Assembly (NCBI RefSeq): GCF_010091945.1
Contig: NZ_WVIE01000024.1
Span: forward strand, 1 to 64,000
DNA: 64,000 bases
DNA from: Myxacorys almedinensis A
GTDB lineage: Bacteria; Cyanobacteriota; Cyanobacteriia; Leptolyngbyales; Leptolyngbyaceae
Direction of reading: 5' to 3'
Part shown: piece by piece, positions 57,856 through 64,000 of the stretch
How the letters are laid out: each line of letters opens with the position of its first letter
How positions within the stretch are numbered: the first letter of the stretch is position 1
Position numbers and translations under genes: made by a program
The notes under the pieces: generated by a model
Database searches by the model: none
What the model saw: the letters and a program-made list of their open reading frames with translations, nothing else
Told to the model about the DNA's origin: nothing

Positions 57856-58125
57856 ATGACGAAATATGTGATGTGGGGAAGCTACTGTGAGGGTGTTCTC
57901 GAAAAACGCGAACCTTACCGAAAAGCTCATTTAGACGGGTTAGCTAAACAGAAAGCGGATGGCGTGTTGGTAACGATTGGCCCAACCAAAGATGTTACGA
58001 AGGTATTTGGCATCTATGAGGCAGAAAGCGAAGCAGCAGTGCGGCAGTTGGTTGAGTCTGATCCCTTCTGGGAAAACGGCATCTGGACAGAGTACGAGAT
58101 CAAAGAGTGGATTCAAGCGTTTTAG
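57856..58125 (+). CDS. YciI-family protein
   Basis: 89 residues with the dimeric ferredoxin-like fold: KYVMWGSYCEGVLEKREPYRKAHLDGLA and FGIYEAESEAAVRQLVESDPFWENGIW, and the Asp of the SDPF motif. Good Shine-Dalgarno AAAGGAG. Likely co-transcribed with pheT. Enzymatic role unknown. Confidence 0.88.
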   Translation: MTKYVMWGSYCEGVLEKREPYRKAHLDGLAKQKADGVLVTIGPTKDVTKVFGIYEAESEAAVRQLVESDPFWENGIWTEYEIKEWIQAF

Positions 58126-58185
58126 AGGCGTTCTAAAGAAACTGGCGGCAAAACTGTAACGCCTGATCGATATTCCCAGTCTGCT

Positions 58186-58359
58186 GAGGATACGCGATCG
58201 CAGGTCGCTCAATCACAATTATTTAACGCCCAATGCTTTGGCGACGTTGCGCTTGACCTGTTCTCCGCCCGGAGTGCCCGATGCTTTGGTGACAACGGTT
58301 GAAATCTGCCACTGTCGCCACAGCGATCGCTCTAATGCATCACTCTCTCTTCGATTCAT
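58186..58359 (-). pseudogene. Broken fragment of cobK 3' region
   Basis: Matches 59161-59316, inside cobK, at roughly 90% by eye. It encodes LERSLWRQWQISTVVTKASG and onward, but a one-base deletion at the GVK codons breaks the frame to a stop, and only about 40 codons of the gene remain. An ATG-started frame of 46 codons at 58359 is what is left. It is a partial duplicate flanking the DUF433/DUF5615 pair. Confidence 0.85.
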
Positions 58360-58389
58360 GACTCATAGACGGACGAAAAGCAAGTGTTG

Positions 58390-58758
58390 CTAGTCTTCGA
58401 TCCAACGGCTAAGAAATTCCACTTGATTGTGCATCTCTTCGGCTGACGTTGCTTCAATCAGCTTCCCTAGTCCGCGTAGTTGTCTTCCAATGGAATATCG
58501 TTGTTGTAATCCCATAATGATTCCAGCGTGGGCTTCTTCTTGGCTTACAAAAATCGTGTGTAGCTGATAGAAGTCTCTTACGTTGGAGGTATAAATTACG
58601 CGACCTTGCTCGGTTGCCCAACGAAGCTGATCGTCATCTGGATATCTCAGTCGTTTGACCTCCAATGTGGTTAGAACATCGATTCCTCGCTCATGTAACG
58701 CCTGTACTAATGCTGTCGCTTCAGAATCTTCATCTATGTACAGCCGAATTTGGCTCAC
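58390..58758 (-). CDS. DUF5615 PIN-like toxin component (second pair)
   Basis: 122 residues. QIRLYIDEDSEATALVQALHERG start, RYPDDDQLRWATEQGRVIYTSNVRDFYQL with conserved acidic residues. It follows the DUF433 gene by nine bases. It belongs to the same family as the 1461-1835 gene but is not a close copy. Confidence 0.85.
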   Translation of the reverse strand: MSQIRLYIDEDSEATALVQALHERGIDVLTTLEVKRLRYPDDDQLRWATEQGRVIYTSNVRDFYQLHTIFVSQEEAHAGIIMGLQQRYSIGRQLRGLGKLIEATSAEEMHNQVEFLSRWIED

Positions 58759-58767
58759 AGTTGTTTA

Positions 58768-59061
58768 CTAATGTTGTTTACTCAGGTTGTGAAGTGCATC
58801 TAATCGATCGTATTCTGCTACTTCGACCGCGATATCTGCATCAATTTCTGCCTGGTTAGCATGATAGTACGTTAAAGCAGCATACACTTGCGCTAGAGTC
58901 AGGTGCCCTATTTGCTCAGCAATTTCGCTCGGAGTAAACCCTTGTTGATGCCAGATGGCAATGCGTCGAACGGTAACGCCAGTACCCGCAATTAATGGCT
59001 GACCTCCGTGAACACGAGGATCAGAGTCAATTAAGATTCCAATGTTAGAAAGTGCGGGCAA
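58768..59061 (-). CDS. DUF433 antitoxin-like protein (second pair)
   Basis: 97 residues. IGILIDSDPRVHGGQPLIAGTGVTVRRIAIWHQQGFTPSEI is the DUF433 signature, including the RIAIWHQQGFTPSEIAEQ helix-turn-helix. It has an extended C-terminus (DRLDALHNLSKQH). It is encoded with the DUF5615 gene between the two cobK copies. Confidence 0.87.
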   Translation of the reverse strand: MPALSNIGILIDSDPRVHGGQPLIAGTGVTVRRIAIWHQQGFTPSEIAEQIGHLTLAQVYAALTYYHANQAEIDADIAVEVAEYDRLDALHNLSKQH

Positions 59062-59080
59062 GGTTTGTCCTCACAAAGCT

Positions 59081-59887
59081 CTACTCTTGAATTCTAGCGC
59101 TGCGATCGTTGATGATCCGAGAAAGAAACGCGATCGCTTCTGTCACACTGTTTGTGACTTGAGGATACGCGATCGCAGGTCGCTCAACCACAATCAATTT
59201 GACGCCCAATTCTTTGGCAACGTTGCGCTTCACATCTTCTCCGCCTGGGCTGCCCGATGCTTTGGTGATAACGGTTGAGATCTGCCACTGTCGCCACAGC
59301 GATCGCTCTAATTCATAACTGATCGGTGGACGCAGGGCAATGATGCGATCGCTGCTAAATCCCGCTTCTATCGCCGCTTCTACCGCAACTTGAGACGGCA
59401 AAATTCGAGTAAACAGCATCGCTTTATCCTGCCATGGTTTGAACAACGATAAAAACCGATAGCCGATAGTTAGCAACACTCGCTGCCCTCGCAACCAATC
59501 CGTTTCTAGCAACTTCTCAAAACTCTCAATTGACCAAACCCCGGTTTCATCCGTTGTTAGTGTCGGGCGTTCAAATCGCAAATAAGCAACGGGATGGGGA
59601 TTGACTGCATCAGCGTCCTGTGTAACGCGAATCACGTTCTTCGATATTTCAACTGCAAACGGATGAGATGCATCTAGTACAACACCGATGTTATATTTCT
59701 TGATAAATCTCGGCAATTCGTTAGGATCAAGTTTGCCAACCCAAACTTGAATGCTTGGAGCAATCGGGTAAAGTGATGTTGCTGATTCAGTGGTTACGGA
59801 AACGACGCAGGGAAACTGAAGGGCTGCGATCGCTCGTGCCAATGTTGCGCTTTCCTCAGTGCCGCCGATCAGCCAAATCCGTTTCAA
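59081..59887 (-). CDS. cobK: Cobalt-precorrin-6A/precorrin-6A reductase
   Basis: 268 residues of the CobK/CbiJ fold: IWLIGGTEESATLARAIAAL start, VVLDASHPFAVEISKNV and TKASGSPGGEDVKRNVAKELG with Gly-rich NADPH contacts. It reduces precorrin-6A in cobalamin synthesis. The start overlaps the upstream methyltransferase stop by four bases (translational coupling). No other cob gene is in the window. Confidence 0.92.
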   Translation of the reverse strand: MKRIWLIGGTEESATLARAIAALQFPCVVSVTTESATSLYPIAPSIQVWVGKLDPNELPRFIKKYNIGVVLDASHPFAVEISKNVIRVTQDADAVNPHPVAYLRFERPTLTTDETGVWSIESFEKLLETDWLRGQRVLLTIGYRFLSLFKPWQDKAMLFTRILPSQVAVEAAIEAGFSSDRIIALRPPISYELERSLWRQWQISTVITKASGSPGGEDVKRNVAKELGVKLIVVERPAIAYPQVTNSVTEAIAFLSRIINDRSARIQE

Positions 59888-60564
59888 AACCCTACTTTAT
59901 ACAGTTCAAACAATTCCCCCGATTGCGTTTTGAGGATTTTTCCGCCCTCCGAGCCGATCATCTCTCGCCAATCTTTTAGAGATTCTAAAAAGACTTCTGC
60001 ATTGGAATAGGTTTCTAAAATCGCCCAGCTTTCAGCCAGTTCGGCGTCCGGGTTCAACACATCAAACACAAAAACGCCACCCGGTTTGAGCACTCGCCGA
60101 ACTTCGGATAACACTAATTTCCAATAGTCGAGCGGGTAATAGCAACTGAATCCGGTTGCGATCGCTAAATCGAACTGCTTCGCTTCATACTGCAAATCGT
60201 GGGCAGCACCAAGTTTCACACCCTTAAACAGCTTTGAGTTTAGCTGCGGTGCACGGGCGTTTAACGCTTCTTTAGCCACCGTGCTAATTTCCTGACCATA
60301 GAAAAAAGCGTTCCAGTCCCGCCAATCGTAAATCAGAAAACTGACCCCGCAGCCAACATCAAGGCAATGCTGATGCTTTTGAGGCTGGGCAAGCTGCCAA
60401 AACGGAGCGGTAAGCTTAGCTTGCAGTAAGCCTGACACCCGTTCTCGAAAAATCGGCATCGCCTGAACCTCATCGGGCAGATCCACCGACTCCCCTCGAT
60501 ATTCTCGATTAAAGCGATCGGCAACCGCTGCAATCTGCGTTTGCCAGTCTATAGAATGGTGCAA
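59884..60564 (-). CDS. Class I SAM-dependent methyltransferase
   Basis: 226 residues. Motif I CLDVGCGVSFLIYDW and a motif ending VLKPGGVFVFDVLNP. Substrate unknown; coupling to cobK might hint at a corrinoid-related task but proves nothing. Confidence 0.85.
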   Translation of the reverse strand: MHHSIDWQTQIAAVADRFNREYRGESVDLPDEVQAMPIFRERVSGLLQAKLTAPFWQLAQPQKHQHCLDVGCGVSFLIYDWRDWNAFFYGQEISTVAKEALNARAPQLNSKLFKGVKLGAAHDLQYEAKQFDLAIATGFSCYYPLDYWKLVLSEVRRVLKPGGVFVFDVLNPDAELAESWAILETYSNAEVFLESLKDWREMIGSEGGKILKTQSGELFELYKVGF

Positions 60565-60568
60565 CAGC

Positions 60569-60745
60569 TTAGCCCTTCAGTGCTTTGGTGAAATTTTGGC
60601 GGTAAGACTTATTCAAGACCAGAACAGGCCATAGTGCCGTTAAATACAGCTTTCCTTGGCTAAAGTTCGTGCGCCGAAAGCCCGACCAAAATTTAAACGC
60701 ACCTACAACATAAACGACCAATAATGAAAAGACCAGAAAATTCAT
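60569..60745 (-). CDS. 58-residue conserved membrane protein (below usual length cut-off)
   Basis: MNFLVFSLLVVYVVGAFKFW begins a membrane helix; then SGFRRTNFSQGKLYLTALWP and a basic end NKSYRQNFTKALKG. This small single- or double-helix protein with the FRRTNFS motif appears real: proper ATG, length, hydrophobicity and basic tail. It is four bases downstream of nothing coding and its stop abuts the methyltransferase start region. Function unknown. Confidence 0.75.
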   Translation of the reverse strand: MNFLVFSLLVVYVVGAFKFWSGFRRTNFSQGKLYLTALWPVLVLNKSYRQNFTKALKG

Positions 60746-61407
60746 CCTCTAACCCTCAACAGTTTCTTTGAAGTTGTGCTGCACGACGATCGCACAGTGT
60801 TCTTAAGATTCTAGCAATCCTAATTTGGTTGCCGACAGAGAGTTGGCGACAGAAGGTTGGTGATGGAAGGTTGGTGATAGAGAGATCTGTGCCACAATTT
60901 GCTCATCAAGGTTTAGCCGCCGTCAGCAGATTGGCTTAAAAACTCGTTTGCCCTCTGGCGTAGCAGGTTAAAGACTTCGCCAACGTCTCCCCAATGAAAG
61001 AGGGCGGCTTGGTTGATCTATTTCAAGATTCCTGAGTTAGTCAGCCCTTGTAAGACTATCAAAAAGTTTAATAAAAATTGTTAGATTCAGGACTAGATAG
61101 TATTGAGTAAGGTCAAATAAAGTTAAGAACACGCTAAGTTTTATGGCTTAGCCCGTACCAAACGTTTGCCACCATCAACTATTGCAAAACTGTCATTATA
61201 AAGCAACGGGTTGAAACCGTAGGTTGAAAAAATAGATTGCAGAAACCGCCGCGATCGCTGTTTGCAATGGTGAAACGGGATGCCACTTCAAGGTTTTTCC
61301 TAGCCAAGCATTGCTGAGGGTGTCTCTATATATTTATTTTTTCACCTCTTCCATTTTTTTACCGCTAACTATCTATCGTTAAACGCCGTTAAAACAAGGA
61401 GACCTAT
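60746..61407. other. Intergenic region with short direct repeats
   Basis: 662 bases. Around 60828-60880 a direct repeat of about 14 nt (GAAGGTTGGTGATG type) occurs three times. Close upstream of the next gene lies Shine-Dalgarno AAGGAGA (61396-61402). No gene supported. Confidence 0.5.
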
Positions 61408-63948
61408 ATGCGAGCAGTGCTAATGGCAGGAGGATCGGGAACGCGACTGAGACCGCTTACGTGTGACCTGCCAAAACCCATGGTTCCTATTTTGAACCGA
61501 CCCATTGCAGAGCATATTATCAATCTGCTAAAGCGCCATCGCATTCGAGAAATTATCGCAACGCTGCATTATTTACCCGACGTAATGCGCGATTATTTCC
61601 AGGATGGGAGCGACTTTGGGGTGCAGATGACCTATGCCGTTGAAGAAGATCAACCCTTGGGAACCGCAGGCTGCGTTAGAAATATTATCGAATTGCTAAA
61701 TGGCACGTTTCTAGTCATCAGTGGCGATAGCGTCACCGATTTTGATCTCAGTGCGGCGATCGAGTTTCACCAGCGCAAAGGATCAAAAGCCACAATCGTG
61801 CTGACGCGCGTGCCCAACCCGATCGAATTTGGGGTGGTGATTACAGACGAAGAGTATCGCATTCGGCGGTTTTTAGAAAAGCCATCTACCAGCGAAATTT
61901 TCTCCGATACGGTCAACACGGGCATCTATATTCTGGAGCCTGAAGTGCTGGAATATTTGTCGCCCAATCAGGAAGCCGACTTTTCTAAAGACTTGTTTCC
62001 GATCTTGCTAGATAAAAACGAGCCGATCTTTGGCTACATTGCAGAGGGCTACTGGTGCGATGTGGGGCATTTAGATGCCTATCGAGAAGCACAGTATGAC
62101 GGGCTATTGCGGAAAGTGAAGCTCAACTTTGCCTATCCTGAGCGATCGCCGGGGCTGTGGGTCGGCGAGAACACCTTCATCGACGCGAGCGCCAAGATCG
62201 AAACGCCTGCCCTGATTGGCAGCAATTGCCGCATTGGGTCTCGCGTCACCATTGATGCAGGAACCGCGATCGGAGACAATGTGACGATCGGAGCCGATGC
62301 CGATCTCAAGCGCCCAATTATTTGGAACGGCTCTATGATCGGCGATGAGGTGCATCTTCGAGCCTGTGTTGTGGCGCGAGGCGCACGCATCGATCGCCGG
62401 GCGCATATTCTAGAAGGCGCGATCGTTGGATCACTTTCTAGTGTGGGAGAAGAGGCGCTAATCAGCCCACAGGTGCGGGTGTGGCCCAGCAAAAGCGTTG
62501 AATCGGGCGCTACGTTAAACACAAACTTGATCTGGGGATATACCGCCCACCGCAATTTGTTTGGGCAACGCGGCGTTTCGGGGCTGGCAAATGTTGACGT
62601 GATTCCTGAGTTTGCCGTTAAATTAGGCGCGGCGTATGGCTCTACCCTCAAGCCCGGATCGCAGGTGTCGGTGTCGCGAGATCAAAGAACCATTTCGCGG
62701 ATGGTGTCGCGATCGCTGATTGCGGGATTAATGTCGGTCGGTATTCATGTCCAAAATCTTGAAGCAACGTCAATCCCGGTTGCCCGTTCTGTCGCTCCAA
62801 CATTAGGCGTTGCGGGGGGCATCCATGTTCGCGTTCATCCTGACAAATCAGAGCACATCTTGATCGAATTTTTTAACCCAAAAGGCATCAACCTATCGAA
62901 AGCAGCCGAAAAGAAAATTGAAGGCGCATTTTTCAAAGAAGATTTTCGCCGCGCTGCCATTCAACAAATTGGTAACGTTGTGCATGTCAACCAAGCGATC
63001 GATCTCTACAGCCGGGGCTTTGAAAAGCATCTTAATCTCAAAGCCGTTCAGCACAGTAGCTCAAAAGTTGTGATTGATTATGCCTACGCCGTGTCGGGTG
63101 CTGTGTTGCCGCAGTTGCTTGCCAAATTTGGCTGTGATGCGGTGGTGCTAAACGCCAGTTTGACGCAGACGGCTCCGACCATGGCCGATCGAGAAAGTTT
63201 GCTCAACCAATTAGGGCATGTGGTAGAGGCTCTAAAAGCGACATTTGGCGTGCAAGTATCGGCGAACGGAGAGCAGTTAATTTTAGTCGATGAAACGGGT
63301 AGCCCGATTCGGGGGGAAACCTTGACCGCCTTAATGGTGGATATGATTCTGACCTCTAACCCGCGCGGAACGGTCGTGGTTCCCGTTCATGCGTCTAGTG
63401 CTGTTGAAATGATTGCCCGCCGCCACGATGGGCAAGTGATTCGGACGAAAGCCAACCCGACGGCATTGATGGAAACTTGCTACGCCAACGCCAACACCGT
63501 GTTGGGGGGCAGTGGCGAAATGGGCTTTATCTTTCCACAACTGCATCCCGGTTTTGATGCCATGTTCTGCATTGCCAAGCTGATCGAAACCCTGACGCTG
63601 CAAGAGCGCACCCTTGCAGAGATTCGATCTGAGTGCCCGCGGGTGTCTCACAAAGTGTATTCGGTGCGTTGCCCGTGGACGGCAAAAGGAGCGTTGATGC
63701 GGCACTTGGTAGAAACCCATCCCACTGAAGATCTAGAACTAATTGATGGGGTCAAAGTCTTTAATCATCAGCGCGACAGTTGGGTGCTGATTTTGCCCGA
63801 TGCCGGAGAACCGATGGTACATATTTATGCCAATAGTAGCGATCGCGGCTGGGTTGATGAAACCTTGCGAGAATACCGGCTGCGGGTTCAAGAATTTGTC
63901 TACCAAGAGCAAGGTGTTGAAGAAATCAGAGTAGAAAGAATGTACTAG
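61408..63948 (+). CDS. Nucleotidyltransferase / phosphomutase-like fusion (Mpg type)
   Basis: 846 residues. N-terminal nucleotidyltransferase about 1-235 (LMAGGSGTRLRPLT, LEKPSTSEIF, TGIYILEPE), a left-handed beta-helix about 245-370, then an alpha-D-phosphohexomutase-like half about 380-846. The mutase lacks the usual catalytic TASHNP (GGIHVRVHP here) and the metal motif DGDADR (replaced by SANGEQ before LILVDE), so it looks catalytically inactive. Cyanobacterial and actinobacterial Mpg proteins of this layout make GDP-mannose precursors. The start codon has a good Shine-Dalgarno. Confidence 0.9.
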   Translation: MRAVLMAGGSGTRLRPLTCDLPKPMVPILNRPIAEHIINLLKRHRIREIIATLHYLPDVMRDYFQDGSDFGVQMTYAVEEDQPLGTAGCVRNIIELLNGTFLVISGDSVTDFDLSAAIEFHQRKGSKATIVLTRVPNPIEFGVVITDEEYRIRRFLEKPSTSEIFSDTVNTGIYILEPEVLEYLSPNQEADFSKDLFPILLDKNEPIFGYIAEGYWCDVGHLDAYREAQYDGLLRKVKLNFAYPERSPGLWVGENTFIDASAKIETPALIGSNCRIGSRVTIDAGTAIGDNVTIGADADLKRPIIWNGSMIGDEVHLRACVVARGARIDRRAHILEGAIVGSLSSVGEEALISPQVRVWPSKSVESGATLNTNLIWGYTAHRNLFGQRGVSGLANVDVIPEFAVKLGAAYGSTLKPGSQVSVSRDQRTISRMVSRSLIAGLMSVGIHVQNLEATSIPVARSVAPTLGVAGGIHVRVHPDKSEHILIEFFNPKGINLSKAAEKKIEGAFFKEDFRRAAIQQIGNVVHVNQAIDLYSRGFEKHLNLKAVQHSSSKVVIDYAYAVSGAVLPQLLAKFGCDAVVLNASLTQTAPTMADRESLLNQLGHVVEALKATFGVQVSANGEQLILVDETGSPIRGETLTALMVDMILTSNPRGTVVVPVHASSAVEMIARRHDGQVIRTKANPTALMETCYANANTVLGGSGEMGFIFPQLHPGFDAMFCIAKLIETLTLQERTLAEIRSECPRVSHKVYSVRCPWTAKGALMRHLVETHPTEDLELIDGVKVFNHQRDSWVLILPDAGEPMVHIYANSSDRGWVDETLREYRLRVQEFVYQEQGVEEIRVERMY

Positions 63949-64000
63949 TTTCCCTTTAACTCCCTCTGAAAATTAAGTAGAATAGAATTACGCAATTGGC

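Follow-up and report, generated by a model that had tools for sequence, protein, structure and literature searches.

Does the phosphomutase half of a fused sugar nucleotidyltransferase still work as an enzyme and, if it does not, what has kept it in place? The question is raised by a gene near the end of a stretch of 64,000 nucleotides from Myxacorys almedinensis A (contig NZ_WVIE01000024.1, positions 1 to 64,000, hereafter the window), which codes for a protein of 846 residues in which a nucleotidyltransferase, a left-handed beta-helix and a phosphohexomutase-like half follow one another (Table 1). A preliminary description of this DNA had presented the second half as an apparently dead phosphomutase, and the sequence comparisons described here support this strongly: no catalytic pattern was found in any of 142 distinct fused proteins, the special constraint on the old site has been lost, and on sequence it is close to certain that the second half is a dead mutase. 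The explanation considered best, with a probability of roughly 0.6, is that a working transferase carries a non-catalytic module of mutase fold, which would act as a regulatory, ligand-binding or assembly unit.

Replacement of the four mutase loops

The alignment of the window protein to the archaeal mutase 1wqa revealed that the core of the phosphoserine motif has changed from TASHNP to RVHPDK, with a histidine (residue 477, nucleotides 62836-62838) at the position of the catalytic serine. The loss of this motif and of DGDADR (SANGEQ in this protein) had been pointed out in the preliminary description and is borne out by the alignment and by the pattern searches below; that description was correct for these two loops but incomplete, the sugar and phosphate loops being changed as well.

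Among the second halves of the 142 distinct fused proteins, no match was found to the phosphoserine ([ST][AG]S[HR]N), magnesium (D.D.D[RK]), sugar-loop (GE.SG) or phosphate-loop (SGT[ED]) patterns. GE.SG is the weakest of these four criteria because 1wqa, an active-type mutase, itself reads GEENGG, a form that is absent from the window protein too. The three stand-alone mutases encoded in this genome served as a control and matched all four patterns, with SASHNP or TASHNP, DGDADR or DGDSDR, GEQSG or GEESG, and SGTEP; a stricter phosphoserine pattern (T[AG]SHN) matched two of the three, L001 having SASHNP.

The 142 proteins range from close relatives through divergent class members to 13 deep members of the phylum (L115-L127), and also take in six plasmid homologues (one from Nonomuraea, four from Streptomyces and one from Sulfuricurvum), counted after the removal of L085, which is the same gene as L004, and of six identical sequences. 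The motif reading is limited to these members, with 80 of 292 relatives kept and part of the further genome matches fetched, and the members from outside the phylum are plasmid records only, namely the six in which a single locus spans 80% or more of the query. The internally deleted copy L134, described below, was excluded from the residue table and from the wide-set entropy.

Since the loop changes are shared by 142 distinct proteins, chance or a sequencing error has been ruled out as their cause. A cryptic serine has been rejected as well: a serine aligned with the catalytic one occurs in just three of the 142 (L115, L118 and L122), outside the motif, in the contexts ISPEQP, LSADSE and MSADSE and never in TASHNP. 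Given the serine of these three deep members and the first metal aspartate, retained in 18 of the 142, the mutase motifs may have been lost stepwise. The replacing residues are themselves conserved, H473 being found in 136 of the 142 proteins, R475 in 138, E622 in 140, D717 in 142, D798 in 141 and H805 in 135; position 477 is histidine in 120 of them and Asp, Ser, Ala, Thr, Tyr, Val or Lys elsewhere.

Selective constraint on the mutase half

The ratio of non-synonymous to synonymous substitution rates (dN/dS) was 0.023 (against L005) and 0.040 (against L006) in the mutase half and 0.027 and 0.042, respectively, in the transferase half, which are rough values, dS being near or above 1. Mean identity among close cyanobacteria was 85% in the transferase, 75% in the helix and 73-80% in the mutase domains. 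The entropy of the four loops relative to that of the domain was 0.60 in the fused proteins (n=38) versus 0.16 in GlmM (n=30), with background entropies of 1.08 and 0.98 bits, respectively. The fused set consisted of 38 of the 142 proteins (every fourth close relative plus divergent class members), and the GlmM set of the own copy of the genome and 29 of 30 loci from the best of 48 matching genomes (the 30th locus was again the own copy), the most divergent GlmM being missing. Conservation in the mutase half no longer peaks at the former active site. Because a low dN/dS coincides with the lost special constraint on the old site, the mutase half is under selection for something, and ancestral catalysis is very unlikely to be that function; as far as sequence can tell, this half is an ancient, maintained pseudo-mutase.

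These results bear on three other explanations. The first is a true bifunctional enzyme, whose mutase would make the sugar-1-phosphate that the transferase then activates. The two domains are consecutive pathway steps, and the architecture of the fused protein is presumably that of the CDD group cd05805 (MPG1_transferase). In its available text, an mBio study of Synechocystis mutases placed cd05805 among the groups catalysing distinct reactions and excluded it as such (PMC9426568), and the accessible part of another paper describes SCO1388 of Streptomyces coelicolor as an apparently bifunctional GMP and ManB (PMC5982138). However, with the phosphoserine, metal, sugar and phosphate-loop patterns all missing in 142 of 142 proteins and the site constraint lifted, a bifunctional enzyme is hardly credible. 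The second is an altered catalysis, in which the old cleft would carry out another reaction, for instance with His477 as phospho-acceptor, or as a hydrolase or epimerase. The frequency of His477, the conservation of H473, R475, E622, D798 and H805 and a conservation peak that adjoins the sugar loop would be consistent with it, but the variety of residues at position 477, the replacement of most metal ligands and a loop conservation unlike that of a working mutase make it improbable. The third is a purely structural or assembly domain without ligand, which would account for a relaxed old site within a domain that is constrained as a whole; it is rather unlikely, as the conservation maximum adjoins the former sugar site and several replacement residues are kept across phyla.

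Nucleotidyltransferase half and the sugar question

The transferase half looks alive, its activity being predicted from 12 positions (G8, G9, G11, T12, R13, K23, D107, E157, K158, N170, G172 and D218) that are identical in 142 of 142 proteins and belong to the GGSGTR...K, SGD, EKP, NTG and DVG motifs. This invariance and the Pfam domains found agree with the preliminary description, where the nucleotidyltransferase and the beta-helix were considered intact. The nearest solved relatives of this half (transferase plus beta-helix) are 8x7s (tlr0611, which we take to be CugP) and GMPPB and plant VTC1 (7d72, 7x8k), and the fold of the model matched CugP, GMPPB and VTC1 with Foldseek and eIF2B, including 7kmf, with VIA. 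CugP, GMPPB and VTC1 differ from the fused protein in being short and without a mutase half. The same genome codes for a CugP-type protein (L143) that matches 8x7s at 708 bits and is 35% identical to the fused protein. In the available part of one paper, CugP is given as sll1558 (PMC7401256).

The transferase scored under the cut-offs of the listed NCBIfam families (best 25 of 49); for the mannose-1-phosphate guanylyltransferase family NF052502 (EC 2.7.7.13) it reached 245.7 bits against a cut-off of 440, a score compatible with this activity. An assignment of the substrate by elimination fails, the genome already having RmlA, GlgC, CDP-glucose and GlmU enzymes (the latter two above curated cut-offs), the CugP-type L143 and a ManC-type transferase (L144, which aligns to positions 1 to 348 of the 467 of TIGR01479 and scores 283.8 bits, below the cut-off of 372.95). 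Because L144 is present, a need for the fused enzyme as the source of EC 2.7.7.13 is not proven.

Co-occurrence was analyzed in 28 genomes whose best TIGR01479 match, by E-value and among the matches listed, resembled the isomerase part alone. The fused gene was kept in 19 of these genomes (in one as two contig pieces) and absent in 9, a split that leaves GDP-mannose undecided because the query is matched between 4 and 16 times in each genome overall, so that other transferases may serve. In families f25 and f53, nine genomes with neither the fused gene nor (by E-value) a ManC-type transferase have gmd above its cut-off; presumably, they rely on another short transferase for GDP-mannose. According to the available part of a review, characterisation of any GDP-mannose pathway protein from cyanobacteria is still lacking (PMC7133116), and a paper on rfbM was set aside, its accessible text concerning a cupin-type enzyme (PMC9007996), as was PMC8227023.

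Distribution and origin of the fused protein

With a threshold of E <= 1e-120, 228 of the 289 sampled genomes of the class matched the fused protein; the 61 genomes without a match include, among the 20 that were listed, families f19 (genomes of 1.6-3.7 Mb, presumably marine picocyanobacteria), f25 and f53 and single genomes of f1 and f45. Named near relatives include those of Myxacorys californica (95%) and Phormidesmis priestleyi (87%), from which the host would be a filamentous cyanobacterium, and the deep members of the phylum are 47-54% identical across the whole protein. When 43 fused proteins were placed in trees, those of the phylum formed a clade with a support of 1.0 for the mutase half and 0.85 for the transferase half, the actinomycete and Sulfuricurvum proteins falling outside it. 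The mutase halves of all 43 formed one clade (0.89), with just the three mutases of the same genome as outgroup, and CugP was placed among the fused proteins in the transferase tree, with a low support (0.57) that keeps this half from deciding for or against a single fusion event. The most economical interpretation of these trees is a common ancestor whose mutase half was dead already, but transfer between phyla may have occurred.

A very divergent fused homologue is located on plasmid pSULKU01 of Sulfuricurvum kujiense (L137:6001-8538), between phospholipase-like and RND efflux genes. Two homologues on Streptomyces plasmids (L138 and L159) adjoin STAS-domain and AGE-epimerase genes, and in L138 a separate phosphomannomutase/phosphoglucomutase gene is found nearby on the opposite strand. 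No relative of the fused protein was found in viral contigs.

Proposed role of the mutase half

In the proposed mechanism, the first half would be an active sugar-1-phosphate nucleotidyltransferase making a nucleoside diphosphate sugar (NDP-sugar), most likely GDP-mannose or UDP-glucose. The permanently fused mutase fold, predicted to be incapable of phosphoserine/Mg2+ mutase chemistry, would most likely bind a sugar phosphate, a nucleotide or a partner, or build an oligomer, and would control the transferase through this binding or assembly. Mutase chemistry is covered by the three motif-intact mutases of the same genome, one of them a GlmM above its cut-off. The suggestion of a regulatory or oligomerisation domain in the preliminary description fits the strong purifying selection indicated by dN/dS and is the likeliest, though still putative, role.

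The nearest parallels in function, together with PGM5 (see below), are GMPPA, which acts with GMPPB, and eIF2B gamma/epsilon, where catalytically silent sugar-enzyme modules control an active partner. The silent part is a nucleotidyltransferase in these systems, versus a mutase in the fused protein. The eIF2B subunits resemble the transferase half in fold, including 7kmf, entitled 'Sugar phosphate activation of the stress sensor eIF2B'. A tentative extension of the regulatory role is that the pseudo-mutase half might be an allosteric sensor of sugar phosphates or sugar bisphosphates, gating NDP-sugar synthesis by carbon status and kept since the ancestor of the cyanobacterial phylum. By analogy, such a sensor might, equally tentatively, be a bacterial counterpart of GMPPA and of the site at which eIF2B binds sugar phosphates, derived in this case from the opposite enzyme. 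If the dead half were a sensor, it would be a control point on the supply of cell-surface sugars in cyanobacteria and actinomycetes, and would illustrate clearly how a catalytic domain was converted into a regulatory one in the distant past.

Several observations weigh against a non-catalytic module with a role in control or assembly. In the wide set, where the transferase half was clearly better conserved (0.98 bits), the four loops had 1.33 bits versus 1.66 bits for random stretches, 4.7% of random quadruples being equally low, and this slight extra conservation could mean that some function of the site persists. One copy, L134 (G251:C1:1084000-1092000), is an in-frame protein of 578 residues in which residues 415-678 are missing and GSTL is joined directly to RTKANP, most of mutase domains I-II being gone and the transferase and helix intact. 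The genome is rated 100% complete; the copy would reflect either a real loss of the domain in nature or a fault of the assembly, and the mutase domain may thus be dispensable in G251. Split, shortened or stop-containing copies are also listed (e.g. G143, G340, G438, G445, G461, G070 and G151), which may be assembly faults. The full-length AlphaFold2 model, built with the window protein and 46 relatives of 75-87% identity, has low confidence, with a predicted local distance difference test (pLDDT) of 62.1 and a predicted template modelling score (pTM) of 0.40, and the packing between domains is undefined because the root-mean-square deviation (rmsd) values are large. Finally, the available text on SCO1388 states that its disruption alone left S. 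coelicolor phage-sensitive and that double mutants resembled strains in which just one of the other two genes was mutated (PMC5982138).

The in-frame loss in L134 and the broken or split copies would also fit a decaying remnant of a former bifunctional enzyme. This explanation was rejected by the dN/dS of 0.02-0.04 and has a negligible probability, the other 141 distinct proteins having at least 829 residues and the same state being found in distant phyla.

Comparison with known proteins

In both sequence and fold, the second half is matched best by stand-alone archaeal and bacterial phosphomannomutases/phosphoglucomutases and GlmM (1wqa, 9du5, 2f7l; TIGR03990), which share its fold, domain order and length; they differ in that all four of their catalytic loops have been replaced in the fused protein, which scores 254.4 bits with TIGR03990, under the cut-off of 439. 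SCO1388 appears to be akin to the fused protein, judging from its described nucleotidyltransferase and mutase domains. The plasmid homologues L135, L136, L138, L139 and L159 are 37-39% identical to the fused protein over 96-98% of its length and the mutase motifs are missing from them too, in contrast to the publication of SCO1388 as apparently bifunctional. The fusion architecture is already known in print. We take sll1496 of Synechocystis to be the long homologue. This gene is listed with a frameshift in the accessible portion of a table of substrain differences (PMC10068330).

An inactive member of the phosphohexomutase family is PGM5 (aciculin), which in herring retains substrate binding and a conserved active site according to the available part of the source (PMC7761743), whereas the domain described here is part of a fusion and has other residues in place of the serine, metal and phosphate loops. 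A published statement of an inactive mutase half was not found in a literature search whose coverage mostly excluded subscription journals. Reading the protein as mutase plus transferase, as for SCO1388, would introduce a wrong step in models of mannose, fucose and exopolysaccharide precursors.

Features of the gene

The features of the fused gene are collected in Table 1. The window is part of contig C16 of a genome of 4.96 Mb in 85 contigs. The coding sequence starts with ATG, and M1 is invariant across 47 aligned sequences. The NTP_transferase domain was found by Pfam with an E-value of 2.3e-58, and PGM_PMM domains I (383-514, 2.1e-25), II (534-631, 1.5e-12) and III (636-743, 2e-6) were found above cut-offs and in order. 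Domain IV gave no Pfam match at E <= 1 in the 846 residues; because the alignments to the archaeal mutases run into this region, up to residues 816 (1wqa) and 824 (2f7l), it is probably present but diverged. The claim of the preliminary description that the mutase half keeps its length and domain order is supported on the same grounds. The fold of the second half, taken from the weak whole-protein model, matched archaeal phosphomannomutase/phosphoglucomutase (Foldseek, 9du5, E 4.1e-28) and 1wqa (VIA, Z 21.6, 398 residues, rmsd 12.0), and the match to solved structures reaches residue 832.

Table 1. Coordinates of the fused gene and its parts in the window.
Feature	Coordinates	Strand	Residues	Basis
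Shine-Dalgarno-like AAGGAG	61396..61401	+		Read by eye
Fused coding sequence, nucleotidyltransferase - beta-helix - pseudo-phosphohexomutase	61408..63948	+	846 in total	Open reading frame call, Pfam, M1 invariance
NTP_transferase domain	61414..62097	+	3-230	Pfam, alignments
Left-handed beta-helix	62158..62457	+	251-350	LbH_EIF2B 9e-17, Hexapep 9.2e-15
Pseudo-phosphohexomutase half, domains I-IV in usual order, IV probable and under the Pfam threshold	62554..63912	+	383-835	Pfam, alignments, fold match
Former phosphoserine loop, GGIHVRVHPDKSEHILIE versus GGAVITASHNPPEYNGIK in 1wqa	62815..62868	+	470-487	Alignment
Former Mg-binding loop, SANGEQ for DGDADR	63259..63276	+	618-623	Alignment
Former sugar-binding loop, GSGEMG for GEENGG (GGEENGG to GGSGEMG)	63508..63525	+	701-706	Alignment
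12-residue stretch with the highest conservation in the pseudo-mutase half, GFIFPQLHPGFD, beside the former sugar loop	63523..63558	+	706-717	38 fused proteins
Former phosphate-binding loop, LPDAGEP for RASGTEP (LVRASGTEP to LILPDAGEP)	63793..63813	+	796-802	Alignment

Neighbouring genes

Rfam gave zero matches at gathering thresholds over 58000-64000. An SSB-like reading frame, recognized by eye, follows the fused gene on the same strand of contig C16, just past the end of the window (L085 from position 2900); the family name comes from Pfam on the L035 copy. The SSB-like gene is present in 56 of 80 relatives, in 52 of these within 572 bases, and in 52 of the 72 loci where 1200 bases or more were available. 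At 59081-60564 on the reverse strand, and diverging from the fused gene, are genes for a CbiJ/CobK-type precorrin reductase and a methyltransferase, relatives of which were found upstream in 26 (CbiJ-type) and 23 (methyltransferase) of the 64 loci where 3000 bases or more were available. An operon clue to the sugar was discarded, these SSB-family, CbiJ-type and methyltransferase neighbours giving no hint of a sugar pathway. Adjacent DUF433 and DUF5615 genes are located at 58390-59061 on the reverse strand and presumably resemble an antitoxin/PIN-like toxin pair.

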